Source: Scilla litardierei
Lineage: Eukaryota; Streptophyta; Magnoliopsida; Asparagales; Asparagaceae
DNA length: 64,000 nucleotides
Assembly (NCBI GenBank): GCA_030789695.1
Contig: CM061133.1
Span: 95,554,128-95,618,127 of the forward strand
Direction: 5' to 3'
Shown: positions 8,085 through 60,415 of the stretch, piece after piece
How positions within the stretch are numbered: the first letter of the stretch is position 1
Layout: the number at the start of each line of letters is the position of its first letter
The notes under the pieces: model-generated
Database searches by the model: none
What the model was told of the DNA's origin: nothing
What the model saw: only the letters and a program-made list of their open reading frames with translations
Program-made: the position numbers and the translations under genes

Positions 8085-8534
8085 CGGTCGAGTGCATCAG
8101 CACTCGACCGAGCTGAGATTCAAACCAAAAGAAGAGCTCCTCCAGCTGTTGTGCACGTACCACTCGACCGAGTAAGAAAGTCACTCGGTCAGATCAACTC
8201 GACTGATTACAATTCAATTCCCATCACTAATCGAAGTAGGAGAGTGCAGAAGTGACTTGATCGAGCACTGCAGCCGGTCGATCAAGCTGAAGCCCAAACA
8301 GAACGAAGATTTTGAAGTCCTCCCCAACTTACTATAGCTCGACAGAGTACTTCAACTACTCGACCGAGCATAATCGATTACAGAGCAGCACTTTGAGCCT
8401 AAAGAAGGATCCCTCAGTGACTCGATCGAGCATGGCGATCACTCGACCGAGCTACTTGTATCTGAAGCTGAACCAAGAAAGGAGAAGCGGATGACCGTGT
8501 CGTCACTCGATTGAGCGGCTCCGCTACTCGACCG
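8085..8534 (+). promoter_or_regulatory. Paired dyad array in B's LTR (core CTCGACCGAG)
   Basis: Six pairs of imperfect CTCGACCGAG palindromes. Core starts (first/second) are 8085/8105, 8165/8186, 8258/8275, 8340/8361, 8423/8444 and 8508/8529, so partners are 17-21 bp apart, mostly 20-21. Pairs recur every 80-93 bp. The first pair can also form a 13-bp stem with a 4-nt loop. The array ends about 75 bp before the TATA-like site, the place expected for enhancer sites in U3. A role in binding a dimeric factor is inference. Confidence 0.75.
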
Positions 8535-9448
8535 AGTAGGGCACCACAGCCCAACTGATTGGGGGCCCAAGAAGCCCTTTCTCCATATTTTTGTGGGGTC
8601 CATCCCTATTGTATTTAAGCACTCTTTTAACCCTAGTTTTAGAGGAGGCTATTGAGATATTTTATTTTAGAAGTTAGTTTTTCTTATAGAGTTCTTGAGC
8701 CGTCGCTATTGTTTTGAAGACAAAGTTGATATTTTTAGTATTGCAATTTGCTTGGCATCACTTGATATTAATTCTCTGCGATTGTTTGCTTGTATTCAGT
8801 GCTTTGGTAATGATCTCTCATCTCTCTATGTTCAGTTCGATGTATTTTATTGTGATCATGCTTTCTATTGCTATTATAAACACTTTTGTTGATATCGCTA
8901 TGAATTATGAGTAGTTGTTTCTAGGGCTAATGGATTAGCCCTAGGATCTTAGGATTTAGATGCAAAGTTATGATTTTTATGTTGTTTTGGTAATAAAAAG
9001 GGATGTGTTTTGGTTGATCCAGCCAAGTTTGTAGGAGATCTTATATAGGGTTTGTGATCCACGATAGTGGCTCACACCTTAGACGGGTATCCTATGATCT
9101 AAATTAGGCACGTTAGTAAATTCAATTAAAGTTTGTGATCCACGGCGTCGGCACACACTTTGATTGTTTCCACCGACGTATTATATTACTGATTGATGAA
9201 CTACGATAATAGCATCAATGAGAGCCATCAAATCACAGATCGAAGCTCTAACCCACGGTGGTGGCGTGAGTAAAGATTGAGAATAATTCTCATTCGTAAT
9301 ACACAGATCGCGTGTAATGCCATCCATGATGGTGGGGCTAAGCATGGGATACGATAGACGAGTGGCACAACGGTAGTTGGCCATGAGTTCTACATTTTAG
9401 ATGCGACAATCTCGCCTAATAAAGCCAATTCAACGTAGAAATTGTAAC

Positions 9449-9453
9449 CTAGC
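9449..9453. other. Left target-site duplication of element C (CTAGC)
   Basis: CTAGC immediately precedes the LTR start TGTAACG and is repeated exactly after C's 3' LTR at 19125-19129. This fixes both ends of C and shows that it inserted into B's LTR. Confidence 0.93.
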
Positions 9454-9746
9454 TGTAACGACTGGTTTCCTTGTATCTGGATTTATTATAATATAATATA
9501 TGTTTTGGTGGATTTTCTCCTCGTGTGTGGTTTTCGTCTCCGTAGCTTTCATTTTCGATCGATTCGTCGTATTTTCTCGTTTCTTCCTTAGGATTGTCGA
9601 TTTCGAAGTATGTCATTCGTGACAGACTTCATAACGGTCGTATCTTACTATTAGATCAAGCCTAGGAGTCTTAGGAATCAATCCCGGAGCTCCGCGCTCC
9701 GTATCGGAACTTTTGGTGCTTATTAGCCGGTGTAAGAAGGGGCACC

Positions 9747-10115
9747 GACCGACTAGATGACGATCCAGTCGGTCGGCAATCCTTCTTGGACCGACTAGTT
9801 GGCTTTCTAAATTTCATAGGAGTTACTGTTTATTCTTAGTCGGTCTAAGAACGTTGGTTGACCGACTAGGTTGCAAACTAGTCGGTCAGCAATGCTTCTT
9901 TAACCGACTAACTCTTCAACTTATTTTTAGTATCTATACTGTTCACTCTTAGTTGGTCTAAGAACGTTCATCGACCGACTAGATGTTAAACTAGTCGGTC
10001 AGTATTTGTTCTTCGACCGACTAATTCTAAATCCTATTTTCGTTCAGAAGTTACTGTTTACACTTAGTCGGTCTGCGTTGGTCGACCGACCGACTAGTTG
10101 CCAAACTAGTCGGTC
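9747..10115 (+). promoter_or_regulatory. Four-unit hairpin array in C's 5' LTR (GACCGACTAG / CTAGTCGGTC)
   Basis: Four inverted repeats with 10-bp arms and exactly 8-nt loops: 9747-9774 (one arm mismatched), 9860-9887, 9973-10000 and 10088-10115. Unit starts are 113, 113 and 115 bp apart. Three loops match NTGNNAAA. Flanking half-sites (TTAGTCGGTC before, GACCGACTA after) recur in each unit. The array ends 68 bp before the TATA box. GACCGAC contains RCCGAC, the DRE/CRT core known to bind DREB/CBF factors; whether that applies here is untested. Confidence 0.85.
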
Positions 10116-10182
10116 AGTGGTTGCTCTTTGACCGACTAGTCTGTGTTAAACCCCTAATTTCTGGGAAGCCGCCAGCCCAACC

Positions 10183-10190
10183 TATTTATA
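10183..10190 (+). promoter_or_regulatory. TATA box in C's 5' LTR
   Basis: TATTTATA in the context 'cctatttatacccctccc', followed by a pyrimidine-rich plant-like leader with CCCTAA words. It is conserved in the 3' LTR at 17432-17439. Transcription should start about 30 bp downstream, marking the U3/R border. Confidence 0.7.
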
Positions 10191-10456
10191 CCCCTCCCAA
10201 ACGTTTTCGTCTTCCTCCACTCGACCTAAAACCCTAAAATCTCCCCCATTGAGCCCACATCTTCCTCCAAGCTCTATTCCTTCATCCCAAGCCCTAGATC
10301 CATCATCTAAACCCTCCATCAACTCCTACCTCTCACCTTCCCGAAAATCTCATCAAATCCCCAAAATCCCCCAAAACCCCTAACTCTCCAAACTTATCCA
10401 TTTGTTTCCAGATCTGGTCCTTGGGTTCTCCGGAGTGTTTCTTCCGCCTCCTCTCG

Positions 10457-10462
10457 GTAAGA
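10457..10462 (+). other. Candidate 5' splice site in the LTR leader of C
   Basis: TCTCG|GTAAGA is a good plant donor in the transcribed leader about 270 bp after the TATA box. The same site is at 17709 in the 3' LTR. A candidate acceptor ends at 11429 (TTAG before GATCC), but I cannot tell which acceptor is used. Confidence 0.45.
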
Positions 10463-11422
10463 AATCGATCTCTCGATGTTTTCATAACCTATTTGTATTT
10501 TTATGAAACCCTAATGAAATTTCATGTTGTTTGATGATTGTTTCCCCATAACAGTGATTTCCCCGTAGATTAGCATCCGCGAGACGAACCTTCGTGATCG
10601 TCATCCCCGGTGCTAGGCAAGTGAAACTTGCCACTTAGGGTTTAGGCCATGTTTTAGGCCATTTGCTTGTTGTAGGCGTAAAAGAGGCTAGGCGACGGAA
10701 TGATATTCGCCTAGGCGTAAACTGGGGAACTAGCTTGACAACGAAGCTAGTTCCGACATATACCATGTTGCACAATTACCATGTCATGTTTACTTTCCAT
10801 TAACGGTACACAAATAAATTGTCATGTCATTGCATTCATCAAGTGATCCCGTGATTGCGTAGCATCGCTACAATACTTGTGTTTCCTGGCTCGTGACCAG
10901 AAGCGAGCATAATGAGTTGCTAACCCCAACGCTCGATATTGAATTGTGAACTAAGAAACAAGCTCCCGTGCGGGGCAACCCTGGCTCACTTGCTGGGCTC
11001 ATGTGCAGGGACCCTGGCTTGTTTACGTGTGGGATGGGGTAAGTGTTAAGCGGCCATTCAACTGGGAGTCTGCCCGATCAGCAACTGCAGTTGTAAGGCG
11101 TAAACTCTGGGGTGGGGTAGTGTTTAGGGCCGATCAGTGTGAATGATGTACCATTCAGCTGAAGGGCGTAAACATCTACAAAACAACGTGAAACGTGAAT
11201 AGTGAATTGATTGAAATTGTTATTAGCGTGGCTCCTCTTGTCTTGTCCCGATAATTGTTCCCTTGTACAAATTGTCTTGCCATGTCTTAATTATGCACTC
11301 ATGTTATAACTGCCATGTCATGCATACTAAAACTGCTAGGTTGCTAGTTGCCTTACTTTCAGTTTCCTCGCCCAAGTCATTTAGACTTGCTGACATGTGC
11401 CCTTTACTCTTTTGGGTGACAC

Positions 11423-11530
11423 ATGTTAGATCCTGAGCCTGAGTACCTAGTTGAGGACGAGGTGTTTGCTGACGCCGAGCCCGAGCTTGTGTTTGACGGG
11501 GAGTACGTGGACACTGGGGACCAGTCATAG
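11423..11530 (+). CDS. 35-codon acidic small ORF near the 3' end of C's 5' LTR
   Basis: Begins ATGTTAGATCCTGAG and ends TAG. The product is dominated by Glu and Asp, with PEPEY, VEDE, ADAEPE and DGEYVDTGDQ segments. The copy in the 3' LTR (18675-18782) differs in the coding part at one position, a silent change in the last Ser codon. No family is recognised. It could be a short leader peptide, or a coding exon for fused transcripts started in the LTR; it may also be untranslated. Confidence 0.35.
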   Translation: MLDPEPEYLVEDEVFADAEPELVFDGEYVDTGDQS

Positions 11531-12019
11531 TGTTTTCGTTGTGTTTCCCTTTTGTTTTCAGACTGTTGTTTTGTTATCGGTGCGTAGCACCTATACTTAT
11601 TATGTCGTTGTTTTTGTTGGCCTTGTTCTGGGACTTTAGACTCTTTCTTTTAGCCTGGTGGCTTTTCTGGATGTTGAACTTATTTTCATGTTGGACATTT
11701 TGTGAGATATGAGAATTTTATTTCCGTCTCTCCTTTTATTATTATTGTTGCTCCGTTGTGGTTACAGGGACCTGCTTATGTTTTATTGACGCTTATCGGG
11801 TTTGGGGCTTCACGGCTCCACTCTCGTGCGGACCTTTTCACGTCTCGCCTCTATTTTAGGGAAGCGGGTCGTGACAGGTTTTGTTGGTGGCCCATGCAGG
11901 TCCTTCTGTAACTTCAATTTTTGGAATAGCGATAATAATATTAGAATGTCCAATAAACTAAGTTCGACGTCCGAGTCATAAGCTATGAGTCTAATCTGAT
12001 TCGTTTTCTGTGTCACTAG

Positions 12020-16702: not shown

Positions 16703-19124
16703 TGTAACGACTGGTTTCCTTGTATCTGGATTTATTATAATATAATATATGTTTTGGTGGATTTTCTCCTCGTGTGTGGTTTTCGTCTCCGTAGCTTTCA
16801 TTTTCGATCGATTCGTCGTATTTTCTCGTTTCTTCCTTAGGATTGTCGATTTCGAAGTATGTCATTCGTGACGGACTTCATAACGGTCGTATCTTACTAT
16901 TAGATCAAGCCTAGGAGTCTTAGGAATCAATCCCGGAGCTCCGCGCTCCGTATCGGAACTTTTGGTGCTTATTAGCCGGTGTAAGAAGGGGAACCGACCG
17001 ACTAGATGACGATCCAGTCGGTCGGCAATCCTTCTTGGACCGACTAGTTGGCTTTCTAAATTTCTCAGGAGTTACTGTTTATTCTTAGTCGGTCTAAGAA
17101 CGTTGGTTGACCGACTAGGTTGCAAACTAGTCGGTCAGCAATGTTTCTTTAACCGACTAACTCTTCAACTTATTTTTAGTATCTATACTGCTCACTCTTA
17201 GTCGGTCTAAGAACGTTCATCGACCGACTAGATGTTAAACTAGTCGGTCAGTATTTGTTCTTCGACCAACTAATTCTAAATCCTATTTTCGTTCAAAAGT
17301 TACTGTTTACACTTAGTCGGTCTGCGTTGGTCGACCGACCGACTAGTTGCCAAACTAGTCGGTCAGTGGTTGCTCTTTGACCGACTAGTCTGTGTTAAAA
17401 CCCTAATTTCTGGGCAGCCGCCAGCCCAACCTATTTATACCCCTCCCAAACGTTTTCTTCTTCCTCCACTCGACCTAAAACCCTAAAATCTCCCTCATTG
17501 AGCCCACATCTTCCTCCAAGCTCTATTCCTTCATCCCAAGCCCTAGATCCATCATCTAAACCCTCCATCAACTCTATCTACCTCTCACCTTCCCCAAAAT
17601 CTCATCAAATCCCCAAAATCCCCCAAAAACCCTAACTCTCCAAACTTATACATTTGTTTCCAGATCTGGTCCTAGGGTTCTCCAGAGTGTTTCTTCCGCC
17701 TCCTCTCGGTAAGAAATCGATCTCTCGATGTTTTCATAACCTATTTGTATTTTTATGAAACCCGAATGAAATTTCATGTTGTTTGATGATTGTTTCCCCA
17801 TAACAGCGATTTCCCCGTAGATTAGCATCCACGAGACGAACCTTCGTGATCGTCATCCCCGGTGCTAGGCAAGTGAAACTTGCCACTTAGGGTTTAGGCC
17901 ATGTTTTAGGCCATTTGCTTGTTGTAGGCGTAAAAGAGGCTAGGCGACGGAATGATATTCTCCTAGGCGCAAACTGGGGAACTAGCTTGACAACGAAGCT
18001 AGTTCCGACATATATCATGTTGCACAATTACCATGTCATGTTTACTTTCCATTAACGGTACGCAAATAAATTGTCATGTCATTGCATTCCTCAAGTGATC
18101 CCGTGATTGCGTAGCATCGCTACAATACTTGTGTTTCCTGGCTCGTGACCAGAAGCGAGCATAATGAGTTGCTAACCCCAACGCTCGATATTGAATTGTG
18201 AACTAAGAAACAAGCTCCCGTGTGGGGCAACCCTGGCTCGCTTGCTTGGCTCATGTGCAGGGACCCTGGCTTGTTTACGTGTGGGATGGGGTAATGGTTA
18301 AGCGGCCATTCAACTGGGAGTCTGCCCGATCAGCAACTGCAGTTGTAAGGCGTAAACTCTGGGGTGGGTTAGTGTTTAGGGCCGATCAGTGTGAATGATG
18401 TACCATTCAGCTAAAGGGCGTAAACATCTACAAAACAACGTGAAACGTGAATAGTGAATTGATTGAAATTGTTAGTAGCATGGCTACTCTTGTCTTGTCC
18501 CGATAATTGTTCCCTTGTACAAATTGTCTTGCCATGTCTTAATTATGCACTCATGTTATAACTGCCATGTCATGCATACTAAAACTGCTAGGTTGCTAGT
18601 TGCCTTACTTTCAGTTTCCTCGCCCAAGTCTTTTAGACTTGCTGACATGTGCCATTTACTCTTTTGGGTGACACATGTTAGATCCTGAGCCTGAGTACCT
18701 AGTTGAGGACGAGGTGTTTGCTGACGCCGAGCCCGAGCTTGTGTTTGACGGGGAGTACGTGGACACTGGGGACCAGTCCTAGTGTTTTCGTTGTGTTTCC
18801 CTTTTTTAGACTGTTGTTTTGTTATCGGTGCGTAGCACCTATACTTGTTATGTCGTTGTTTTTGTTGGCCTTGTTCTGGGCCTTTAGACTCTTTCTTTTA
18901 TCCTGGTGGCTTTTCTGGATGTTGAACTTATTTTCATGTTGGACATTTTGTGAGATATGAGAATTTTATTTCCGTCTCTCCTTTTATTATTATTGTTGCT
19001 CCGTTGTGGTTACAGGGACCTGCTTATGTTTTATTGACGCTTATCAGGTTTGGGGCTTCACGGCTCCACTCTCGTGCGGACCTTTTCACGTCTCGCCTCC
19101 ATTTTAGGGAAGCGGGTCGTGACA
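16703..19124 (+). repeat. 3' LTR of element C
   Basis: Full-length partner of 9454-11876, about 2 percent different by eye with a few short indels (for example near 17572). It carries the same hairpin array (16996-17364), TATA (17432-17439), donor (17709) and acidic ORF (18675-18782). TSD CTAGC follows directly. Confidence 0.95.
16996..17364 (+). promoter_or_regulatory. Four-unit hairpin array in C's 3' LTR
   Basis: Units 16996-17023, 17109-17136, 17222-17249 and 17337-17364 have the same 10-bp arms, 8-nt loops and 113/113/115-bp spacing as the 5' LTR copy. Arms are retained while nearby single-base changes have occurred. Confidence 0.85.
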
Positions 19125-19129
19125 CTAGC

Positions 19130-23564: not shown

Positions 23565-23888
23565 CCGCTCGGCCGAGCACGGTGCTCGCTCGGCCGAGCG
23601 GTGCCTTGTGTTGCGCTCCCTTCGCCTTGGCATTTGAGAAAGGCCGCTTGGGCGAGCGACTTGAGACGCTCGCGCGAGCGTCATATCGCTCGGGCGATCG
23701 AATTAAGTTCCAAAAAATCCGGAGAGCCCAAGTCTTGAAGAAATGGGCTCCTCTGGGTACTGGTTCGTGCGAGCGAGCTGGTCGCTCGACCGAGCGAGAA
23801 TGTCGCTCGCCCAAGCACCCTATTGGAAGAAGTTGGCACTCTTTTGAGAGTCACAGCTCAGCCGAGCACATGTTGTGCTCGGTCGAGT
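23565..23888 (-). promoter_or_regulatory. Paired dyad array in D's 3' LTR (core GCTCGGCCGAGC)
   Basis: Palindromes of the GCTCGGCCGAGC type with core starts 23570/23591, 23650/23671/23691, 23768/23788/23808 and 23859/23880. Neighbours within a group are 20-21 bp apart. The array is upstream of the minus-strand TATA in D's sense. Confidence 0.78.
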
Positions 23889-37093: not shown

Positions 37094-37545
37094 CCAACCG
37101 ATCGATTGGACACAGCCAACCGATCGGGTGGTGCATGCGCATCCGACCCGAACGGAAGCTGATGCGTAGTGCAGCCCAACCGACCGATTCACCGACCGGT
37201 TGAACACATCAGAGTTCTCGGCCATTTGGAGCTGAATTCCAACTGATCGGGTGACATCTCAACCGATCGGTTCATCTGTAGTTGATTTTCCAAGCGACGA
37301 CCCAGAGAGCTCAACCGACAGTTCGTTGACCATGTCTATTCATCAGTGTTCTCTATATTTTCAGGGATAATTCCAACCGATCGGTTGAATACTCAATCGA
37401 TCGGGTCACCTGATGCCGCATCCCCCCAATAGACGACCCGGAGACACCAACCGGTCGGATCAAGTGAGCGGGTGAAGTTCTCGAAGCCAACGGCCGAAGC
37501 ATCAAGAAGCTCACCTGATCGGTTGATGCTTCAACCGATCAGGTG
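37094..37545 (+). promoter_or_regulatory. Paired dyad array in F's 5' LTR (core CAACCGATCGGTTG)
   Basis: Dyads of the CAACCGATCGGTTG/CACCCGATCGGGTG type in pairs. Clear core starts are 37099/37121, 37244/37264, 37378/37398 and 37516/37535 (19-22 bp apart). Weaker pairs lie near 37181, 37312 and 37453, giving about seven modules 63-82 bp apart. The array ends 12 bp before the TATA box, with a bZIP-type TGACGTC (37544-37550) between. Confidence 0.82.
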
Positions 37546-41640: not shown

Positions 41641-41651
41641 GGAAACAAGCC

Positions 41652-41997
41652 CCCAACCGATCGGTTGAGCTCTCAACCGATCGGGTAGGACGTATCAGAA
41701 AATGCCATATATCTGTTCTTCAGCGAACCGCTCGGGTGGAGCAAACCGAGACCGGGTGGCAGATCGTGTGAGAACGGCAGAAGTCTCGGGAAAACTTGGG
41801 ATTGAATCAACCGATCGTTTGATAGAAGCAGTGGTCGTGTGGCCGTCCGAGTGAAGTGCACAGAACTCTCGGGAAAATCATGAAGCGGCCAACCGATCGG
41901 TTGAAATCTCAACCGATCGGTTCGCCTGTAGCCACTTTTCAACAAATTTTTTCTAAATAATAACCAACCGATCGGGTGAAAACTCACCCGATCAGTT
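41652..41997 (+). promoter_or_regulatory. Internal paired dyad array before ORF2 of F
   Basis: Five pairs with the same CAACCGATCGGTTG motif as F's LTR. Core starts are 41658/41678, 41729/41747, 41812/41832, 41894/41914 and 41969/41989. Partners are 20 bp apart in four pairs; pairs recur at 71-83 bp. It lies 430 bp upstream of the ORF2 ATG and just before a TATA-like site, so it reads as a second, internal promoter. Confidence 0.8.
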
Positions 41998-42009
41998 CGT
42001 CCAAAACCC

Positions 42010-42017: not shown

Positions 42018-42441
42018 CCCCCCGACTGAACCGATTCGTTTTCTTCACCCGACTTCGACTTCTCCTCCACCGTTTCGAATTCTCCAAGCCCCAACCGGCC
42101 ACCTTGCTCCCTCAACCGGCCACCAATCCCTCTCAATCAATCCCATCGCCCCCTACTTCCTTCTCCCCATCAATCCAACTCTCCTCCATCCCCATCCAAA
42201 CCTTAATTTTCGCCCACTCTTCCCCATTTCTAAAAAAATTGTTGAAGAGGCGTGTTGCGGCTTCACACTCCCATCAATTGCACAGCGTTGGGTGATTTGC
42301 GAGCACGGATTGTTTACGCTACTGGATAAACTCGTTCCCTATATCTATTTCTTACATTTGCCCTAGCACTATATTTTTGCTCAATTGCCATTGATTGTGT
42401 ACATTCTTCATATCTTGCATACACTTGCATCACACACTATC

Positions 42442-43536
42442 ATGGTCAAGGAAAAAGATAATGGTAAGGGTATAATGCGTGAGGAGGGGTCGTCTCGCAA
42501 GAGACGAAAGACCACATGTCCACCTAGTTCACGTCCCCCTCCTACACAGCCTACACAACCCCAACCCCAACCAATCATCCCTCCTGAGGACCCAATGATG
42601 GGCCCGCGTGGTTACCATTTTTTGAGTGTTGAGCAGAAAGATTTTTATAATAGACTCGATGCACGAGGACACTTATCCACCAAGTTTGCACATGCACAAG
42701 CTCTTATCGATCTCGGAGTTTTCTTCGAGGTCGAGACTCTCTTTGCTAACTTAGGATGGATAGCTTTCCTAAACGCCAACGCGGTATCCTACCCCTCCCT
42801 CACACTCGAATTTCTATCCTCCCTTAAATGTGAGTCGGGATCAATCGTCATTTTCTGCATCCGAAACAAAACCATCTGCACCCACCTGAATACTATTAAT
42901 AACATTTTCGGTTTTCCCATTCTTAGGGACGACGCTATCCGTCCCTACGGGTATCACCCTGATTTCGACGTCGATCAATTTTGGTTTCGCCTCACCAAAC
43001 ACGATCATTATCCTCGAGGTAAGGCCAAGGCCTCCTCCATCATTCACCTCGTATTCCGTCTGGTCCACCGAATCATATCTTGCACATTCTTCCCCAGGGA
43101 TGAGTCCGGGACCGTGACCATCCCTGATCTTTTCATTTTGTGGGCCATGACATTTGCTTTTGTTCGCGGTGATGACGGGATTACTTTTGGGGCCCCTGTC
43201 ATTCCCATTCATGCCGGTGCTTGGCTTATTCACAAGTTACTTGAGATTAGCCGCGGCGGCAAGGACAAGTTTTGTTGCGGGGGCCTCATTACCATCATAG
43301 CTTCATATCCCCAGTACAATATCTTCATCCCCCGAGATTTGTCTTCTGCCTCAGGACCTACACGTCTAGATCTTGATGTCCTGTGGCACATACACATGAT
43401 CAAGCCCCGCCCTGATGGTCGTTTCACTTTCTTCTACGGTCATCCCCTGCTGCTTACACCATTCTGCCCAACCCAGCTCGCATGTCTATCGTTCTTGTGG
43501 CAGACTGGACATTCCCTCATGACCCTGAGTTACTAG
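42442..43536 (+). CDS. ORF2 of F: Athila-ORF1-like protein (364 residues to the first stop)
   Basis: ATG at 42442 (MVKEKDNGKGIMREEG) is chosen because it starts a Lys/Arg-rich, nuclear-signal-like N-terminus (GSSRKRRKTT), then a Pro/Gln linker. The folded part from about residue 60 has HFLSVEQKDFYNRLDARGH, YPSLTLEFLSSLKCESG and NTINNIFGFPILRDDAIRP, the pattern of the Athila ORF1-type ('plant transposon protein') family, whose function is unknown to me. There are no RT, integrase or envelope features and no clear membrane segment. It sits after gag-protease behind its own array and TATA. TAG at 43534-43536 may itself be a C-to-T change, since Pro/Ser/Thr-rich sequence continues to 44391. A DNA-binding or anti-silencing role is my inference. 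Confidence 0.72.
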   Translation: MVKEKDNGKGIMREEGSSRKRRKTTCPPSSRPPPTQPTQPQPQPIIPPEDPMMGPRGYHFLSVEQKDFYNRLDARGHLSTKFAHAQALIDLGVFFEVETLFANLGWIAFLNANAVSYPSLTLEFLSSLKCESGSIVIFCIRNKTICTHLNTINNIFGFPILRDDAIRPYGYHPDFDVDQFWFRLTKHDHYPRGKAKASSIIHLVFRLVHRIISCTFFPRDESGTVTIPDLFILWAMTFAFVRGDDGITFGAPVIPIHAGAWLIHKLLEISRGGKDKFCCGGLITIIASYPQYNIFIPRDLSSASGPTRLDLDVLWHIHMIKPRPDGRFTFFYGHPLLLTPFCPTQLACLSFLWQTGHSLMTLSY

Positions 43537-46017: not shown

Positions 46018-47662
46018 TGACGTGTGTTTATATTTTATATATTCACACACGTCTTCTTTGTGTTTTTCCGTTATTTTACGTCGTCTCATACTCGTTTTCT
46101 TATGATTTCTAGTTTTCTTTCACTTCTCCGTGTGTTTGTGTGTTTGCAGGAGATTGCCAGCGTAGGGGACATATGACAAAGATATCATGAGTCCTCGGAG
46201 CAATGGGAGGAGTCATGTGCGATCCAGGGGGGTTAAACGACGAAGATTAACATTTTTTCAGCCCCCAACCGATCGGTTGGACACAACCAACCGATCGGGT
46301 GGTGCACGCGTGTCCGACCCAGACAGAAGCTGAAGCGAAGTGTAGCCTAACCGACGGTTTGTCGACCGGTTGAACACAGCAGAGTTCTCAGCCATTTGGT
46401 GCTGAATTCCAACCGATCGGTTGACATCTCACCCGATCGGTTCATCTGTAGATGATTTTCCAAGCGACGACCCGGAGAGCTCAACTGACGGTTCGCTGAC
46501 CGTGTCTGTTCATCAGGGTTCTCTGTCTTTTCGGGGATAATTCCAACCGATCGGTTGAATACTCAACCGATCAGGTCACCTGATGCCGCATCGCCCCAAA
46601 TGACGATCCGGAGACGCCAACTGGTCAGATCAAGCGAGCGGGTAAAGTTCTCAAAGCCGACGGCCAAAGCATCAAGCAGCTCACCCGATCGTTGATGCTT
46701 CAACCGATCGGGTGACGTCGATTTCTATATATAGTTGCCCTAGGTTTCTGAAAATGCAGCTTTTGTTAATTTCTGTCTTTTTCTCCATTTGTGACGGCTG
46801 GAATTTTATTGTTATCTGTAAGTTTTTTTATCTTTGTGAAACTTTGGTATTGTCTTACTAGCATTGCTACTACCTCGTTTCAATTTCCTGATCATGATTT
46901 TTACGGTTGATTTTCATTTAGATTGCTTTTTAGCTATAATGTGTGAGTAGTTCCCAAATCTGTGATTTTGGTGGAAACCCCTTCGTGAGTTCTCCCTAAT
47001 GTGTCCATAGGACTAGGATTTCGATAGGGATTAGGAATTTAGATGGTTACGTGGGGTGTTTCATTGTCATCAACAGAAAAAAGACCGCATTTGACCGTCA
47101 GGCCAAGGGGAATAAACATGGCTGTTGACTCCCTAGCCACAGCTCACGCCCTTAGAGTAAACATCGAATCCTAGCGCGTGGGAATGGTAGGATGAGATGT
47201 TGGGAGTTATCGTTGCGAGCTTAGTGCTCCCGGAGTCGGTCAGTGTTAATGGACCTGGGAATGCCCACTGACCGAACCCGGTAGTCCTGTGTATCATCCT
47301 GGGCACCGACCGGAATATCGGGCCAATGGGACGCTGGTATCACTCTTAGAGGCAACGTCTCACCACTTAACCCTAATTCCGATCGTATTCCTATCCTCCG
47401 GTCATTATAGTGAGTACACATGATAGGGTGGAAACCGAAGTCCTAGGTTTCCTTTTTTATTGTTTATCCTCGTATCTATATTTTGTGACAAACCATCGAT
47501 CGATCGGGCTAGCACACCCATAGGGTGAACCAGTTCCTCTTTGACACAAGCACAACCACGTCTCCCTGTGTTTGACCCCCATGCCACACTACAACACCGT
47601 GCGCTTGCAGTATAAATATTTAAATCTGGTACCCTTGTATGTGTCACAAACCGGGGACGTCA
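46018..47662 (+). repeat. 3' LTR of element F
   Basis: Pairs with 36848-38508, same ends TGACG..CGTCA. Contains the dyad array (first pair 46270/46292, last near 46681-46711) and TATATATA at 46726-46733. Flank TGGCT follows. Confidence 0.95.
46264..46714 (+). promoter_or_regulatory. Paired dyad array in F's 3' LTR
   Basis: Same arrangement as in the 5' LTR; pairs at 46270/46292, around 46415/46435, 46550/46570 and 46686/46705. One arm near 46690 has lost a base. Confidence 0.78.
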
Positions 47663-49392: not shown

Positions 49393-49629
49393 TGGTTACA
49401 TTTAGTCTAAGGGGTCGATACCACAACCCCATTTATCCTAGCACTTCTTTGTATACCCTTCATTGAACCCAACCCTTTGTGCGCTGTGGGGGATTTCTTT
49501 CGCTCTTTACTATTTTTACTTAAGTTCTACTGTTCAACGTACCATTCTTCATTTATCATCGTTAGATCATTCAGCTCATCTTCATTATCATTGGTGTCTA
49601 GTGAGTCATCTGGAAGAGAGGTCCATATA
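49393..49629 (-). other. DNA upstream of LINE-A ORF2
   Basis: AT-rich, no supported ORF. It may hold the end of LINE ORF1 or its 5' region; I could not recognise ORF1. Confidence 0.3.
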
Positions 49630-49650
49630 CGCGCGCACGCACACGCACAC

Positions 49651-49699
<49 letters not shown>
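49630..49699 (+). repeat. (CA)n microsatellite
   Basis: Begins with CG/CA alternation and becomes pure (CA)n to 49699. It lies at or near the 5' border of LINE-A. The open frames on both strands across it are artefacts of the repeat. Confidence 0.95.
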
Positions 49700-49703
<4 letters not shown>

Positions 49704-49889
49704 TGCAAATAATGATGATGATGATACTGATGATATGCAATATGTACAAAATGGACACTAATGACAACAAAATGGACGCCAAAATGTGACTCCCCAAGCT
49801 GAACGAAGCTAGGCCCCGAAATGGCAGATGGGCACAATAAAAGGGGGAAGACATTGGAATAGTGAGAAGCTATAAATCAAGTAGCACCA

Positions 49890-52440: not shown

Positions 52441-52717
52441 GTTGAGGGAGGGCAGGGATGGTATTAGTGTAGTGCTCGAGTGAGGGGTGGTAGCGCTCGG
52501 GGGTTGGGAGGGCGTCGATTGGGATGAGGGGTATCGAAAAAGGGGGGTTAGGCTTTGGTGCGGGTGCGGGGGAAGATGGAGGAGATCGGAGGGGAGAAGA
52601 GAGAGTATGAGGGTGCTTGGGGGAGGGGGTCGTCGGAGGGAGTGGTGCTCAGGGATAGGGAGATCAAGGGAGTTGGTTGCTTGGGGTCGGGGAATTAGGG
52701 CTGAGGGGGTTTGGGTC

Positions 52718-52858
52718 GCTCGCATGAAATTTTCGAGCGAGCGCCCAGAAATAATAAATAGGGTTTTTCACAAGTGGTCGAGCACTCTCGCTCGGGCTGA
52801 CTTATCTGCCTTTCGATTTGGGTTAGTCGCTCGGCCGAGCGCTTTGTACGCTCGGTCG
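52718..52858 (-). promoter_or_regulatory. Internal dyad array before ORF2 of D
   Basis: Dyads of D's own GCTCGGCCGAGC type: 52832/52853 (21 bp apart), 52775/52793, and GCTCGC/GAGCGAGCGC near 52718-52745. Shorter and more eroded than the LTR array. A weak minus-strand TATA-like 'CTATTTATTATT' lies at 52749-52760, then a CCCTAA-type pyrimidine-rich leader toward ORF2. Confidence 0.62.
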
Positions 52859-53079
52859 AGCAATCTGGAAAATCAGCACAATCAACCCCTTGGTTCTTCT
52901 CGTGTTTCTCGCCGCTTTAAATCTCAACTCCACACCCATGGCTTTGATTTTTCTTTTGGCGTCATGAATGCCAAGTACATACCAAAATCAACAAACTTCA
53001 GTTATTTATGGATTTTTGAATTTCTATAATAAAAACCTCAAAAAACCTAATTAAAATCGAAATGCGAGTAAATAGGCTG

Positions 53080-53110
53080 GGTTGCCTCCCGCCAAGAGCT
53101 TGTTTAAGGT
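53080..53110 (-). other. Post-gag marker of element D
   Basis: The minus strand reads 'acaagctcttggcgggaggcaaccc', the counterpart of the markers in B (about 22290) and F (about 41510). It separates gag-protease from the ORF2 promoter region. Confidence 0.5.
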
Positions 53111-53396
53111 CATTAGCTTGACCCCTGTGGCTCAGTGAGGTGATATATTGGGCACGTGCAAGAAGCACCCATCGTTCTTCCCGACCAGCCCTTGTGGGGC
53201 CGGTTGGTCGAATGCCTTCTTCGGACCCTTAGCGGTCCTTCCATCCTCTTTTCTCTCCGTTTTTGGGGAGCCCCATGGACGCTGCAGCAACTAGGTTCCT
53301 GATTTTCACGAGATCTAAATCGCGATCCTCCAAGGTGAGCATGGCGTGCTTGTGCGTCATCGATCCATCATCGGTGTCCTCGTCCTCGTCCATGAC

Positions 53397-55805
53397 CTAT
53401 AGATATGCCGCCACAGATTTGTCATGCCGAGGGTCCAAATCATGGTCCTTACTCTGCAGCTGGTGGTCCAGAAGTACTTCTTCAGCAATGAACTCTTCCA
53501 CGAGTTCATCCTCCACCAAATCAAGATACCTAACATCCGCAGTGGGGTTCCTCTCCATCATTGGCTTAGGTAGCCGAAATTCGGCCTCAATGTTTCTGAC
53601 ATTAAGGGAGAGCATGCCTTCTCACAGGTCTATCAGCACTCCAGCTGTCGCCATAAACGGGGGACCTAAAATCAGCTACGATCCTCCATCTTGTGCCATG
53701 TCCGTAATAAAAAAATCCACCGGCACGCTCACCCCGCCGGGAATCTGTACGATGACGTCCATAGCCACTCCGACCGGGTGCATCACTGACCTATATGAGA
53801 GTTGGATGGTCATGGTCGTCGGCTCTAACTTTTTCCTGGTGTTGAGGCGATGGAAGATGGACAAAGGCATCAGGCTGATGCTTGCTCCCAAATCTAACAA
53901 GGCCCTCCTGATGGGGACGCCACCTATGGAGCAAGGGACGGTGAAGCTCCCCAGATCCGGGAGCTTCTTTGGCAGTTTGTTGCTCCTAAAAATGAAGACG
54001 GTTGTTCTACCAACAAAACCTGCTCCATATTTCTCTTCCCTGAGATTAGTTCATTAAGGAACTTTACGTACGAGGGTATCTCTGTGAAGGCGTCCATGAA
54101 TGGAATATTCAGCTTCAGACCCTTCAGAAGCACTATGAACTTGGCGTACTTCTCCGCCATTTTGGCCTTAGCCAATCTACTCAGGAATGGAACTGGAGTG
54201 GGGCGATCCTTGGGCTTCTCCATGGGACTTGCCCTTTCCTTGATCACTTCCTCCACTACGGGAGGGTTATCTCTCTCATCAGTGGTAGGCTGCTCCTCAG
54301 CCTCAATATCTCCACCATCAATAACCGATGGTTGCTCACCTATCGCCTCCTCGGGTGAAGCAGCTGTGAGAATCATCACCGGCGGCTCCGGTTCCATCGT
54401 CGATAGGCTGCTATGTGTGGTGATGGAACATGCGATCTCCCTGGGGTTCTTCTCTGACTGAGTGGGGAGCTTGCCTTGGGACCGCACCATCTGACTCATC
54501 TGCTCCTTTAGCTGATCAACCGTGGTGGAAAGTTCCTTGTTGCGGGTCGCATGGTCTAGATTGAGCTTTGCCTGCTCCTCAATGAATCTCTCCAAGGTGG
54601 CCTCCAAGGACGATTTCTGCTGAGTTGGACGAGGAGCGGGTAAAGCTAGCTACTACTGACGCTGCTGCTGGTACCCTGTCAGTCTATAGGGGCATACAGC
54701 CTCTGCTGAGACTGCTGTTGTTGTAGCTGATACTGCTGCTGCAGATACTGCTGTGGCTGCTGAGACTGCTACTGCTGATGGGGCTGTTGTTGTGCTCTGC
54801 TGCTATTCCTATATAGGAAACCAGGGTAGTTTCTCCAAGACAGATTCTCATATGCTCCATTGTTTCATCCTCTATCATCAGAGGTGTAGGTGGCCTCCTC
54901 TGTTGTTGTAGGAGGTGCCTGGTAAGAGTAGGTCCCACCATTGGGTCCGTGATCTATGCACCTCTTGTAAGCGGCAAATGTGTTGGCAGGGGGTAAGCTG
55001 GGCATAGCGTCTAGTCGGTGCTCCAATATGTCCATCTGCTGCGTAAGGGATTCGAGACAGCCATCAAAAGTAGCTGCCTCGCTGACTTCATATCGGCCTC
55101 CTCCTAGGGCCTTGGTAATAGTCGGGATAGACCTGTCGTCCCCCCAATGTTGGTTGTTGGCTGTCATAGCCTCAAGGATCCTCATGGCTTCAGTTGGCTC
55201 TTTCCTTGTTATGGATCCATATATTGTAGCATTAACTATCATCCTTGTGTCCGAACACATTCCATTGTAGAAAGATAGGACCAAGTACCATGTGATGATG
55301 CGGTGGTTTGGACACTGATACTGGAGGTCCTTTTATCGTTCCCATGCCTCATATAAAGAATCATGGCCCCTTTGCTTGAAATTGGTGATTTGGTTCCGAA
55401 GACGGAGCATCTTCGAACGGGGAAAGTATTTGGTGATGAAGGCCTCCACAAGCTACTCCTATGTCGTGAAGGTACCAGGTGCTTGGGACGTCAGCCAATA
55501 ATGGGCCTTATCCTTCAAGGTGAAGGGGAAGAGCCGCAACCTGATCGTATCATCGCTGACGCCTTGCATTCGGAATGTGGAGCACTTTGCTAATAACACC
55601 TCCACGTAGTGACTGGGGTTCTCATGTGAGAGCCAGTGGAAGCAGTCTTGTTGCACCAGCAGGATGAGCCCCGTCTTTAGCTCGAAGTTGCCCTCGCGGA
55701 TCGACGGTACTATCACGGAGGAAACTAAGGCGGTGTCGGGCTTCATAAAATCTCAGATCAATTCTGGTGGAAGGAGAGGATGTGGTCCTATGGGAGGCTC
55801 AGCCA
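53397..55805 (-). pseudogene. gag: gag and protease of element D, degenerate
   Basis: Minus strand, from about 55805. Athila/Tat motifs: EGNFELKTGLILLVQQDCF (about 55698-55642), TIRLRLFPFTLKDKAHYWL (about 55551-55495), 'DSLYEAWER' (about 55350), LSFYNGMCSDTRMIVNA (about 55278-55228) and EAMTANNQHWGDD (about 55176-55138). A Gln-rich linker (about 54820-54690) holds stop codons in runs of Gln. Then MEATLERFIEEQAKLNLDHA (from 54607), KYAKFIVLLKGLKLNIPFMD (about 54158-54100) and a retropepsin with LLDLGASISLMPL (about 53904-53865, catalytic Asp kept). The frame breaks at about 55450, 55285, 54860, 53920 and 53670. No reverse transcriptase follows. Confidence 0.85.
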
Positions 55806-56063
55806 TCGCTACTCTTCTCCTTCTATCTGCTATAAGTCACCTTGCAGTCGCCTCTATCTCAAGATCAATGGCAAAAGATCTTCTCCTTCCTGAGAATGTG
55901 TCAACATGCAAAATAGAGTCACTCAAGAAAATCGTGGAACTCGTTAGCAAAAAGAGAAAAGATAGTAATAAGAGAAAAAAAGAAAAATAAAAAGAAGTGG
56001 TGGGGTGTCAAGTTTGGATAAAACCAATACTCTCCAACCAAAAGCTAAAGTAAACTGTTGCCT

Positions 56064-56081
56064 CCCGGCAACGGTGCCAAA
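56064..56081 (-). other. Primer binding site of element D
   Basis: Minus strand TTGGCACCGTTGCCGGGA follows the LTR end by three bases; it matches the Athila/Tat PBS with one change. Confidence 0.9.
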
Positions 56082-57204
56082 ACGTGTTCCTCGCCTGCGA
56101 TGCATGGACGAGAACACCGCAAGTGGATGGTGCATTATAGTATGTATAGAATGTCGAACTCTAGGAAGGCGATCGTCTAACTCTTAGCATTTTACGGATG
56201 GATGAGAATGTGTGGTCAGGGTTGTCACGTGTAATTTGGTTGGTTGGTTGAAGGAAGTGGAATAGACTAAATATTAAACGTCTAGGGCTTTCGGGATTCC
56301 CTGCTAGGGCCTTCGGTAATGGATTTTGGGTCAATTGATCCTCCGTCGGCGATCGATTAGGATAGGAGTGTCACATCCAGAGATGGGAACAGGCGTTAGA
56401 ATTCCGTCGTCATGCTCGTCTAACGCATCCCTATATGGGGTTGTGCTCTCGCTATCGGCTTCATACGGGATTGCATGCATTACACTTGACACTTGGGTCC
56501 TGCCTAGCAATCCATAGGCACTCGTGTACTCTACGGAATGTGATGCCATCCTATGGTTGATTCTAGTGGCCAGGCTACTTTCATAGTCATTAGTTAGCGA
56601 ATTGGGGGTTAGTGGTCGCCCCAGGCTCTCGGGTCACCCTCGTGAGCATGAGCCCCAGAAAATGACCACTAATCCCAAATCGAATTCGTGGAGATTCTCC
56701 CTAGGATACGGAGTTGCTTTCGCGGTCCTCCAATCCTAAGGCTAATCCCCCAACCCCCTTTTTCAAATCACCATAGGGAGACCCTAGATTCGTCCAACGG
56801 AGGTCTAACCCGACATCCAATCCCTAAGATCCTAGGGATCCTCCCTAAGCCCTAGAACCCACAACTCTAGCATGGCAAAAGCTCTAAATATGATAGCAAT
56901 AGAGATAGGCATATCTAACTGCTCAAATTGCATGAAATCAATTTAAATAGAGAGAGCAAGAGAAATAAGAGCAATGGTAAAGAAATCAAAGAAATCCAAC
57001 CGCAAACAAGTAAATAGATGGCAAAAGAGATTACCAAGAGAGAGCTCCCAAAATAGCTCTAAGTATTTAGCTACAGAAAAATAAAGCTTAAGCTACTCTA
57101 AACGTTGTTCACTATTTATACAAAACTATTTGGGTTCGGATTTTACAAGAAAAACCAACTCGAAACTCATTAATTCAAGTCAATTTGGAGCCTGCCGACC
57201 TACC

Positions 57205-57530
57205 ACTCGGCCGAGCACAGTGCTCGCTCGGTCGAGCAGTGCCTTGTGTATCGCTCCCTTAGGCTCCGCCTTGGCATTTGAGAAGGGCCGATCAGACAAG
57301 CGATTTGAGTCGCTCGCCCGAGCGTTATCTTGCTCGGGCAAGCGAATTAAGTTCCAAAAATCTAGAGAGCCCAAGTCTTGAAGAAATGGGCTCCTCTGAC
57401 TACTGGCTCGGGCGAGCGAGCTGGTCCCTTGGCCGAGCGATCTTGTCGCTCGCCCGAGCACCCTCTTGGAAGAAGTTGGCGCTCTTTGGCGAGTCACAGC
57501 TCGGCTGAGCGCATCTTGCGCTCGGCCGAA
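57205..57530 (-). promoter_or_regulatory. Paired dyad array in D's 5' LTR
   Basis: Core starts 57208/57229, a group around 57317/57335, a group around 57413-57453 and 57502/57523. Same spacing (mostly about 21 bp) and same position relative to the TATA as in the 3' LTR. Confidence 0.78.
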
Positions 57531-57759
57531 CGATCTGGTATGTTCTTCTATCTTAGGCTCATCTTCTCCATTCTCCTCTTTTCATCTCTCCTTCTCCATT
57601 CTCCTCTTCTCCTTTCTTCTTCTCTACTTCTTTGGCCCCCTTGGGTTGCCGACGCGAGGAGGGGAGGGCTTCGGCGTCCACGTTGTGTCCAAAGTCCCGT
57701 ATCGCTCCGAATCGCTCAGAATTCCCTGAATACATATAAAACATCGAAATAATCAAGAA

Positions 57760-58420
57760 CTAGTCATAACCCGTGCCGCGGGCACGGTTCATTTAGCATT
57801 TCCCCCGCGAAATCTTTGTTCCCCGAAAAATTATTTACACAGCCAAAATTTAATAGAACAATACATTAGCGTAAAAATATTTAGCGGCACGGGCACCTTC
57901 GGCGTGTGCGTCTTCGGCGTGGAACAACAAATTCGCTGTCGAACAACAAATTTGACGCCCGCGCCTTTGGCGCAGAACAACAGATCTTTGTAAAAAAATT
58001 TAACGGCGCCTTCGGCGCGGGCGACGGAAAAACCAACATAAGGGTATTTTTACGTGAATTTGTTGTTCCGCTAAATTGTTTTACGCTAAATTTTTTATTT
58101 TATTTAATTTAATGGATCATGATTCTCCACAATCTTTCCCAATGCACTATTAATTTCAAAGTTTAGGTTTCCAAGGCACTTTCCCCTCAAATTTAATCTC
58201 CACAATCCTTCCCAATGCATGTTTCCCCCTAAATTTAATTTCCACACTCTTTCCCAAGGCACTTCTAATTTCAAAGTTTGTGTTTCCAAGGCACTTTCCC
58301 CCAAAAAATTTCACAAAATCCAATCTCAACCATTGATTTACCAACATCAAATCTCAGCCGCTCTTTATCTTGTCTTAGTCAGCCCTAGAATTCAAAAAAC
58401 ACTGTCAAATGTATAATAGA
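57760..58420 (-). mobile_element. Short non-autonomous Helitron inside D's 5' LTR
   Basis: On the minus strand it starts TCTATTATAC and ends CTAG, with a 7-bp-stem hairpin (CCGTGCC/GGCACGG, plus 57771-57787) 11 bases before the terminus. It lies exactly between A and T of the host LTR: comparison with the uninterrupted LTR near 24110-24125 shows no duplication. These are the defining Helitron features. It has no Rep/helicase; its inner part includes repeated 'ccttcggcg' words and 'ccaaggcactttcccc' repeats (58170-58300). Confidence 0.9.
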
Positions 58421-58621: not shown

Positions 58622-58980
58622 GTCACTCGACCGAGTAGCTACCCTACTCGGTCGAGCTCAGGATAGCTACAGAAGAAAGCAAAAACAACACTATGGAATC
58701 AATTTGAGTCGACTGAGTTGCTACCCTACTCAATCAAGCTTATGAGCAGTCACAGAATAGAGCTGAAAACTTCGCTCTGGAACCAATTCGACTTGACCGA
58801 GTAGCTATAGTACTTGGTCGAGCTCAGTGTAGCATCTGATGAGAGCAAAACAAGAGCTCTTAAAATATTCAGCTCAACCGTGCTGAGTAAGCAGCTCAGT
58901 CGAGTGGCCAGAAAGTGTGGGAGATTTTTAGTCTGTTATATTTTCAGCTCGACCGAGCAACCTGTACTACTTGACCAAGC
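58622..58980 (+). promoter_or_regulatory. Internal paired dyad array of B (same motif as B's LTR)
   Basis: Five pairs of CTCGACCGAG-type dyads with core starts 58628/58649, 58710/58731, 58794/58815, 58875/58897 and 58950/58972. Partners are 21-22 bp apart; pairs recur every 75-84 bp, matching the roughly 83-bp period of B's LTR array. The first pair forms a 14-bp stem with a short loop. It lies upstream of a TATA box and of the ORF2 start fragment. Confidence 0.78.
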
Positions 58981-59057
58981 AGCAACTTATAAGCGGGGGC
59001 ATGTTCCTTTTAAATCAGAACGGGATCAATCGAGTAGCCCAAACTTGGTTAGCTCCT

Positions 59058-59064
59058 TATATAA
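59058..59064 (+). promoter_or_regulatory. Internal TATA box of B
   Basis: TATATAA in 'agctccttatataatcgaaacgacc', about 80 bp after the last dyad, followed by a pyrimidine-rich leader with CCCTAA words. Confidence 0.65.
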
Positions 59065-59265
59065 TCGAAACGACCCCCTCACAACTCCCTCAAAAGTAAA
59101 AATCATCAGCCCGAGCATAGCCATCCCTCTCTTAACCCTCTCTCACTCGATCTCCCTCTTCGCTCGACCGTCGCACACGCCGGCCGAGTGCCACTGAACC
59201 AGTCACTCGGTTCGACCAACCTCCCCTACTCCATTCCATCCATCCCTCTCCCCTCTCTCTCCCCA

Positions 59266-59268
<3 letters not shown>

Positions 59269-59347
<79 letters not shown>
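59269..59347 (+). repeat. (CT)n microsatellite in B's internal leader
   Basis: Almost pure (CT)n over 79 bp. Open frames across it on both strands are artefacts. Confidence 0.95.
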
Positions 59348-59350
<3 letters not shown>

Positions 59351-59510
59351 CCTTAATCTTAACCCTAAAATCAACTAATTTCTAATTTTTAACCCTAAAC
59401 GCCTTTAATTTCTTTAATCTGCTACTAATACTTTTCCCATCATCCAATGCATGTACATTCAAAGCGTTAGGAGGCAACACTTGGGTGTGGATCGCTTTCG
59501 CTGATTGGGA

Positions 59511-59515
59511 CAAGC
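59511..59515. other. Left target-site duplication of solo LTR G (CAAGC)
   Basis: CAAGC precedes TGTTGAGTAA and is repeated exactly at 61244-61248. In the uninterrupted host it would form part of 'caagcttggggg', a motif natural for B. Confidence 0.8.
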
Positions 59516-59935
59516 TGTTGAGTAATGATTTCCCAGATTTGGTTTTGATGATGAGCAAACATAAATATCGTGAACTAACTCTTTGTGAGCACAGTTATGG
59601 AGATCGTCGCCAAAATACTACGTACATCAAAAGCGACATCTCAAGACTTCTCAATACGCGTGATCGTGTGCCTGAAGCTTCGTTGAAGCTCAAGGAGCAT
59701 TATTGAAGTCAAAAGTGAAGATTGAAGCTTTGAAGACGGTTCGTCATGTTTAATTTAATGTCTTCTAGCTTCATAGAATAGAATGTTAAGCCTTGAGTAG
59801 GACTTACTTTATAATCTTCTTATCGCTCATATCTTAGAGCTAGGATTATCTTAGAAGCCATTAGAAACTTTCCCGAAGCCTATTGTTTCTTCCCTCGGCT
59901 TCTAGTGCATATTAGTTGGTTCAAGTAGAAGAACC

Positions 59936-60415
59936 AACCGACTAGATGACGATCTAGTCAGTCGGCAATTCCTCTTGAACCGACTAGATGCCTTGCTCAA
60001 TTCAGCCTAGACTCTGTTGATCAATTAGTCAGTCAAAGAAGGTTCACCGACCGACTAGATGACGATCTAGTTGGTTAGGAATCCTTCTCAGACCGATTAG
60101 TTATCATTGCCTCATTTCAGCCAGAGCTACTGTTTTCATTTAGTCGGTCAAAGCACAATGACCGACCGACTAGTTGAGAAACTAGTCGGTTGGAAGTTGT
60201 TCTTAAACTGACTAGCTGTCTTTGAATCCAGCCTACTATTTCAACTCTTAGTCGGTCAAAGAACACTCACCGACCGACTAGTTGGTAAACTAGTCGGTTG
60301 GCAAGTCTTCTTACACCGACTAGTTCATATCGCCTGGAATTCTCTTTATTGGCTGTCAACCTCTTAGTCGGTTCATGTTGAATCACCGACCGACTAGCTG
60401 AGAAACTAATCGGTC
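59936..60415 (+). promoter_or_regulatory. Five-unit hairpin array in solo LTR G, near-identical module to that of C
   Basis: Inverted repeats with arms GACCGACTAG/CTAGTCGGTC-like and 8-nt loops at 59936-59963, 60049-60076, 60164-60191, 60272-60299 and 60388-60415 (starts 113, 115, 108 and 116 bp apart). Loops: ATGACGAT twice, then TTGAGAAA, TTGGTAAA, CTGAGAAA. Flanking text such as 'CGGCAATTCCTCTTGAACCG' is also close to C (9774-9796). Ends about 90 bp before the TATA box. Confidence 0.88.

Follow-up and report, generated by a model that had tools for sequence, protein, structure and literature searches.

The closest described counterparts of the arrays reported here are the palindromic, mostly CGG-CCG-cored repeated-motif (RM) boxes of Ty1/copia Sireviruses, located upstream of the long terminal repeat (LTR) TATA box and 5' of ENV; in the available portion of the same source, splicing is predicted for the third open reading frame (ORF) of Athila, and an internal promoter is merely hypothesised for Sireviruses (PMC2829016). 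As far as the accessible text describes them, VANDAL arrays consist of one-orientation motifs read by element-encoded VANC proteins, with a non-palindromic motif, YAGTATTAY, for VANC21 (PMC5735166). Family-specific tandem-repeat arrays lie near extra ORFs predicted to be DNA-binding in Retand (PMC11963269, in part), and gene23 of maize Grande is reported to be transcribed from a promoter upstream of gene23 (PMC7264820, in part). Here we analyze a 64,000-nucleotide stretch (the window) of the Scilla litardierei genome (contig CM061133.1, positions 95,554,128 to 95,618,127; host genome of 3,683,941,228 bases) that, by self-comparison and Pfam searches, is filled by several nested LTR retrotransposons. 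LTR arrays of paired dyads precede TATA boxes in this window, and in the two Athila-type elements, D and E, the family motif recurs as an internal array upstream of ATHILA sequence; in D, this array lies between protease and ATHILA remnants. The labels B to G are those of this analysis (Table 1); the element called F in a preliminary description of the window is probably E here (CAACCGATCGGTTG, period of 63-82 bp), and F here, of the CTCGACCGAG type, is a further array.

When dyads were called de novo (12-mers with at least 5/6 paired and at least two CG, with 100 local dinucleotide shuffles as control), the window contained 79 compared to 31.3 +/- 5.4 in the shuffles, and 9 pairs 18-22 bp apart compared to 0.18 (maximum 3); all nine pairs belong to D or E elements, some of them as LTR copies of one another, so that fewer than nine are independent. 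Thus, the arrays are confirmed as real and far beyond chance, as the preliminary description had claimed. A motif scan gave paired axis gaps of 20, 21, 21, 21 and 21 bp in B; 21, 21, 21, 22 and 22 in F; 21, 21, 21, 20, 22 and 21 in D1; 21, 21, 21, 20 and 21 in D2; 21 in Dint; 22, 20, 20 and 20 in E5; 22, 20 and 20 in E3; and 20, 20 and 20 in Eint, with further gaps of 12 and 13 in E5, between degenerate dyads, and one of 19 in E3. Adjacent axis gaps of 20-22 bp were significantly more frequent than in random placements in B (5, P = 0.0004), F (5, P = 0.00015), E5 (4, P = 0.008), E3 (3, P = 0.006), Eint (3, P = 0.005), D1 (6) and D2 (5), the last two counts each being reached in 0/20,000 placements; the single such gap in Dint was not significant (P = 0.18). 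The earlier figure of 20-21 bp for B, D and its F thus holds in the main, with paired gaps mostly of 20-22 bp. Dyad lengths (10, 12 and 14 bp) vary and the spacers vary accordingly; what the arrays have in common is therefore the distance from axis to axis.

The arrays of C and G are built from inverted half-sites. The arms 18 bp apart with an invariant 8-nt gap that had been described for them were found in 9/9 modules (four in C, five in G), and the half-sites are spaced 24-18-24 inside modules with linkers of 42-50 bp. Because of this spacing, successive inverted-pair axes are exactly 21 bp apart, i.e. (24+18)/2, which the preliminary description had missed; the axes of paired dyads thus lie 20-22 bp apart in all four motif types within the window. 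The arrays of C and G are not independent of each other, being homologous (~71-73% over 430 bp). The repeat period is mostly 80-85 bp in B and 113-115 bp in C and G.

The autocorrelation of CCGA/TCGG positions, which had been proposed as a check, exceeded 300 Markov samples each in B, C5, D1, D2, E5, E3, Eint and G (P from 0 to 0.037), and in the F array it did not (P = 0.51). As a meaningful half-site common to the four motifs, CCGA/TCGG is weak and was rejected: the two halves stand as TCGG-CCGA in D and in the opposite order, CCGA-TCGG, in E. The observed/expected ratio of CpG is 1.05-1.56 in the B, C, D and E arrays, 0.77 in F and 0.93 in G, compared to 0.79 in the window. CpG enrichment alone was likewise rejected as the defining feature, because the control LTR family H has a high CpG density before its TATA-like site and no repeated dyads visible by eye.

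Twenty stretches picked from the genome-wide pair listings were fetched, ten of the E type and ten of the CTCGGCCGAG (D) type. Both LTR and internal arrays were present in 10/10 E-type loci, and an ATHILA ORF in 6/10; the other four (L041, L043, L044 and L046) have an internal array with no ATHILA match within the fetched stretch. Among the CTCGGCCGAG-type loci, 6/10 have an ATHILA match with an internal array upstream, and the remaining four (L047, L053, L054 and L055) have neither. Thus, an internal array is located upstream of the ATHILA match in 12/12 fetched loci that have one. Arrays and spacing are retained in the fetched copies, the loss of which the preliminary description had named as a refutation of its reading; the internal arrays themselves were absent from that description. 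Three further fetched CTCGACCGAG loci also bear arrays.

In the E loci (L037-L046), 30/30 LTR and internal clusters, including a third cluster in L040 that is a doubled array, end 11-12 bp before a TATAAATA/TATATATA-like TATA box; the stretch between the last dyad and TATA differs in sequence between LTR and internal arrays, and its length is almost the same. In the window, TTTAAATA starts 11 bp past the last dyad of Eint as counted by eye, a stricter TATA pattern having no match there. A TATAAG/TATATA-like box lies 12-15 bp past the last dyad 10-mer in every one of the six D-type internal arrays adjacent to an ATHILA ORF; these distances were read directly (and by eye in L052, where the last dyad is degenerate); an automatic scan returned no TATA or 199 bp for these arrays because downstream dyad-like strings stretched the clusters. 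In the window, a TATA box follows the arrays of B to G; the fetched LTR clusters are also followed by one, with two exceptions, namely, the first cluster of L053 (none within 250 bp) and a 3-dyad cluster of L056 cut off at the stretch end. Six comparisons of the LTR and internal arrays of one element with dyads masked gave 0-2 weak matches apiece; therefore, one motif is kept at an LTR promoter and a putative internal promoter whose surroundings are otherwise little related. In L040 (9065-9824), the LTR array is tandemly duplicated over 380 bp with 98.7% identity, which shows that arrays can double at once. In L048, L049 and L052, the internal TATA is followed by a C-rich leader, a possible intron (GTA/GTAAC donor and TTTGATGYGCAG acceptor, alike by eye) and then the ATHILA ORF.

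Comparison of aligned units showed that dyads are conserved and the sequences between them are diverged. In B, identity was 84.5% for dyads compared to 43.4% for spacers and 42.6% for linkers (76%, 52% and 48% in F), and B linkers aligned alone were at the shuffled level (0.434 vs. 0.408 +/- 0.032). Across E-type loci, which were chosen by exact pairs, dyads were more conserved than linkers in internal arrays (94.7% vs. 85.7%; 10 loci) as well as in LTR arrays (96.8% vs. 91.1%; 9 loci, L040 excluded).

The genome-wide search for dyad pairs that had been suggested was run with patterns that allowed any gap from 0 to 30, with reversed motifs as controls, and gave counts far above the controls for all four motif types. 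E-type CAACCGATCGG pairs numbered 10,526 on the forward and 10,519 on the reverse strand (control 0 and 3; a fully palindromic pair enters the list and the count once per strand), B/F-type CTCGACCGAG pairs 9,148 and 9,103 (control 5 and 2), D-type CTCGGCCGAG pairs 90,144 (control 26) and C/G-type GACCGACTAG...CTAGTCGGTC modules 238,937 (control 0), or ~1 per 15 kb of genome, the last two patterns being self-complementary; single CTCGACCGAG sites numbered 87,125 and 86,267 (control 3,367 and 3,414). Spacing was tallied by hand from the 100 matches listed per search. Among these, 95 E-type pairs had an axis spacing of 20 bp; CTCGGCCGAG pairs were spaced 21 (31), 22 (52), 23 (16) and 38 bp (1); CTCGACCGAG pairs 19 (3), 20 (27), 21 (47), 22 (16) and 40 bp (4), with one each at 10, 31 and 39 bp, such that 93 fall into the 19-22 class; and the C/G gap was 8 nt in 100/100, with varying gap sequence. 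Spacer sequences vary widely among the matches listed despite the fixed spacing. Paired CTCGRYCGAG was also found in 28 viral contigs, one pair each, which we take as chance.

On these observations, the arrays probably act as cis-regulatory modules in promoters transcribed by RNA polymerase II. A DNA-binding protein with two-fold symmetry, i.e. a dimer, would occupy each dyad, and with paired dyads about two helical turns apart, two dimers would sit on the same face of the DNA and bind cooperatively ahead of TATA. Athila-type elements would have one family-specific module in front of two promoters, that of the LTR, which would drive gag and genomic RNA, and an internal one from which the ATHILA third ORF would be expressed, such that one factor would switch both. 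From the spacing and layout described above we infer protein binding, cooperativity and promoter activity of the internal arrays, and any identity proposed for the factor is likewise conditional; that a cooperative dimer-binding module serves the LTR and internal promoters of Athila-type elements is, in our judgment, fairly probable. The preliminary interpretation, a shared architecture suggesting cooperative binding on one face of DNA, is thus partly supported: the two-turn spacing and the retention of B dyads over diverged linkers agree with it, and the longer periods are not clearly helical.

Several points weigh against this interpretation. The long linkers between pairs are only marginally in phase with the helix (Rayleigh p = 0.016, jitter P = 0.039), and in C and G the half-site gaps of 18 and 24 bp are not whole turns, only the axes being so spaced. 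Dyads were called by consensus match, which favours their apparent conservation; F linkers are ~2 standard deviations above the shuffled level (0.483 vs. 0.417 +/- 0.033), and the within-pair spacers of F are somewhat more alike than chance. When the two LTR copies within an old element are compared, dyads are no better preserved than other sequence, a pattern to be expected if insertion puts an end to selection (identity of dyads, linkers and outside sequence, respectively: 0.896, 0.885 and 0.928 for E5/E3; 0.825, 0.881 and 0.896 for D1/D2; 0.987, 0.979 and 0.981 for C5/C3). Of random positions in the window, 19% have a TATA-like string no more than 100 bp away, TATA-like strings are also found inside some D-type array spacers, and the D LTR arrays, unlike those of E, are 84-96 bp from TATA. 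The 12/12 count of internal arrays upstream of ATHILA is not unbiased because the E loci were picked from a listing that shows arrays. The matches listed in the genome-wide searches are the first places on contig C1, at one end, many are copies of the same family, and those of the E type include both strands of one place. Finally, in six arbitrarily spaced 9-kb stretches, array clusters were found in 1/6 (L062), and the excess of 19-23 bp pairs was small (2 vs. 0.16; 48 dyads vs. 35 in Markov samples); there was no ATHILA match in these six stretches.

The palindromes could instead act as RNA or DNA hairpins that give rise to small RNAs and methylation or are targeted by them, as reported for maize Sirevirus LTRs; we consider this unlikely in the present case. 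Folding of array RNA beat 100/100 shuffles in the three arrays folded (z of -4.6 for E3, -5.0 for B and -12.8 for C5), but any palindrome array folds well. CpG decay by transition between E LTR copies (7/23 in dyads, 13/24 in linkers and 18/61 outside) and between D1 and D2 (9/28, 4/13 and 32/77) is consistent with methylation, although not array-specific, and the available part of a study of Sirevirus palindromes reports an excess of small RNAs there (PMC10760457). A hairpin, however, requires neither a fixed axis distance of 20-22 bp over varying spacers nor a TATA box at 11-12 bp. If the arrays were a by-product of tandem unit duplication, the spacing would be merely inherited. Indeed, C and G are true tandem repeats of 113-115 bp, the similarity of within-pair spacers exceeds chance in B, D, E and F (0.41-0.53 vs. 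0.30-0.32), F linkers exceed the shuffled level slightly, and the LTR array of L040 was duplicated as a 380-bp unit. Nevertheless, B linkers have reached the similarity of shuffled sequence, with dyads and spacing retained, the LTR and internal arrays of one element have little in common beyond the pair modules, and the same 20-bp spacing occurs with many different 6-nt spacers; duplication as the explanation is, accordingly, very unlikely in our estimate.

The remaining alternatives concern the identity of a factor. Each array could be a cluster of sites for a host stress-related transcription factor, which in C and G might be DREB/CBF, a doubtful explanation of the arrays in general that is nonetheless compatible with cooperative binding of a dimer, as the identity of the factor. 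The dehydration-responsive element (DRE) core, RCCGAC/GTCGGY, has 16 copies in the 393 bp of C5 and 18 in the 504 bp of G, compared to 87 in the whole 64-kb window, but there are none in B, D1, F and Eint and three in E5, so that this explanation covers only C and G. In the accessible part of the Sirevirus work, RMs match mainly stress-related sites in PLACE (PMC2829016). Alternatively, the reader could be encoded by the element, i.e. the ATHILA third-ORF protein or a relative would bind the dyads of its own family in a VANC-like manner and lift silencing or activate both promoters; this appears improbable, and a VANC-like ATHILA protein is a possible candidate for the factor. In the VANDAL/VANC system, binding causes DNA methylation to be lost. 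A VANC-like fold of the ATHILA protein was promising at first, but a better model, that of a relative, did not show it, and ATHILA sequence profiles had no relevant match in PDB. It would be similarly speculative to propose a self-specific Athila circuit, in which the third ORF, long called envelope-like, would encode a nuclear VANC-like DNA-binding protein that is expressed from its own internal promoter and reads the family dyads at both promoters, with motif and protein co-evolving such that each family activates only itself.

Table 1 Arrays and associated features of the 64,000-nucleotide window.
Feature	Position	Strand	Remarks
B LTR array	8083..8536	+	CTCGACCGAG type; pair axes 20-21 bp; pair period mostly 80-85
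B TATA-like TATTTAAG	75 bp past last dyad of B LTR array	+	
C 5' LTR array (C5)	9747..10139	+	half-site modules R-24-F-18-R-24-F, period 113 bp; TATTTATA 43 bp downstream
C 3' LTR array (C3)	16996..17388	+	copy of C 5' LTR array
D1 LTR array	23567..23888	-	GCTCGGCCGAGC type; paired axis gaps 20-22; TATAAATA 84 bp downstream, minus strand
D2 LTR array	57205..57531	-	LTR 88% identical to D1; site resembling a primer-binding site (PBS) follows, 56079-56056
D internal array (Dint)	52720..52861	-	D-motif pair 52861-52829 and weaker dyads; TATTTATT 68 bp past pair
D ATHILA remnants	51634-50724	-	
E (Athila) 5' LTR array (E5)	37095..37545	+	CAACCGATCGGTTG type; TATATATA 11 bp downstream
E 3' LTR array (E3)	46266..46714	+	TATATATA 11 bp downstream
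E internal array (Eint)	41654..41998	+	motif as in E LTRs; upstream of ATHILA ORF
E ATHILA ORF (PF03078)	42367..43536	+	third ORF, behind E internal array
F array	58626..59034	+	CTCGACCGAG type; paired axis gaps 21-22; TATATAAT 23 bp downstream
G array	59936..60439	+	half-sites and in-module spacing as in C; TATATATA 66 bp downstream

Elements C, D and E are Ty3/gypsy. C (LTRs at 9454-11876 and 16703-19124, 97.9% identical) has Ty3-type gag/pol and an SH3_Tf2-1 domain; it sits inside a B LTR, flanked by the 5-bp duplication CTAGC (9449-9453 / 19125-19129), and B resumes past 19129, up to a degenerate PBS at 19370. E (LTRs at 36847-38464 and 46017-47634, 91% identical; Retrotrans_gag at 38603-39550) and D (minus strand, LTR copies at 22443-24117 and 56081-57759) both have the Athila set of gag, protease, ATHILA third ORF and LTR-adjacent PBS, the D PBS differing from that of E in 7/24 bases. 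In tblastn searches, there were two ATHILA matches in the window (E and D), and E proteins identified gag, protease and ATHILA relatives in D and showed that B, D and E are related through gag. Thus, C, D and E are distinct from Ty1/copia Sireviruses in their coding content. The ORFs for reverse transcriptase and integrase of C have no other match in the window at an E-value of 1, including 38500-46000 in E and 48000-56080 in D; E and D, therefore, seem to lack both enzymes, and both Athila copies are probably non-autonomous, judging from sequence. F and G are less complete than the other elements and were not assigned to a class. The D2 LTR is broken by a 645-bp insertion (57760-58404). Family H is arranged LTR-LTR-internal-LTR (24232-32067; LTRs at 24232-26068, 26071-27904 and 30264-32067, ~90-92% identical), with a PBS-like site at 27902. 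Minus-strand fragments resembling a long interspersed nuclear element (RVT_1, zf-RVT) occupy 33718-36651, and a perfect (TC)40 tract (59268-59347) lies downstream of the F promoter.

In the copies examined, an array with a TATA box directly precedes the ATHILA ORF, in a placement resembling that in the E LTR, which bears on how the third, envelope-like ORF of plant retroelements is expressed. A spacing of paired axes by about two turns also provides a quantitative rule for any binding model. A literature search, with subscription papers mostly outside its scope, found, among the papers listed, no report of such arrays in Athila, or of these motifs in plant retroelements.

The layout has partial parallels in several systems. 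Maize Sirevirus LTR palindromes are reportedly small-RNA hotspots (Bousios, 2016) and are, like the present arrays, a palindrome-rich cis-region with hairpin potential; the spacing and TATA position observed here would rather argue for a protein-binding role. The 21-bp repeats of animal viral promoters contain activator sites about two turns long, repeated upstream of TATA, a likeness in layout for which we claim no sequence relation. With VANDAL, the arrays share short, family-specific motifs repeated in non-coding parts with rapid turnover, to the extent covered by the available text (PMC5735166), but VANDAL are DNA transposons, and the motifs here are palindromes or inverted half-sites rather than in one orientation. 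The Tat-lineage elements Retand and Grande similarly have extra ORFs with their own repeats or promoters; those ORFs are antisense, unlike here, and paired palindromes shared with the LTR are not described in the accessible parts of the sources (PMC11963269, PMC7264820). The preliminary description knew of no named system of this kind, but the Sirevirus RM boxes, as presented in the available portion of PMC2829016, do resemble it: both are family-specific, CG-containing palindromes of high copy number upstream of the LTR TATA box. A second cluster lies 5' of ENV in ENV-bearing Sireviruses and before the ATHILA sequence here, and four E-type loci have it with no ATHILA match in the stretch, among loci not drawn at random. 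Like RM boxes, the window arrays consist of a repeated, dyad-symmetric, family-specific motif. RM arrays form CpG-rich islands; here, CpG is raised in the B, C, D and E arrays, slightly in G and not in F. The CGG-CCG core of RM boxes is present in D (TCGGCCGA), reversed in E (CCGATCGG), partial in B/F and split into half-sites in C/G. Unlike RM boxes, the arrays described here reside in Ty3/gypsy hosts (Athila, and C with its SH3_Tf2-1 domain), their axes are spaced by about two turns, which was not found in the portion of PMC2829016 available, and their internal copies end 11-15 bp from TATA, whereas the Sirevirus internal promoter is, in the same text, not conclusively identified. Thus, palindromic promoter arrays extend from Ty1/copia Sireviruses to Ty3/gypsy, and the new features are the Ty3/gypsy hosts, the two-turn axis spacing and the matching TATA placement at both promoters.

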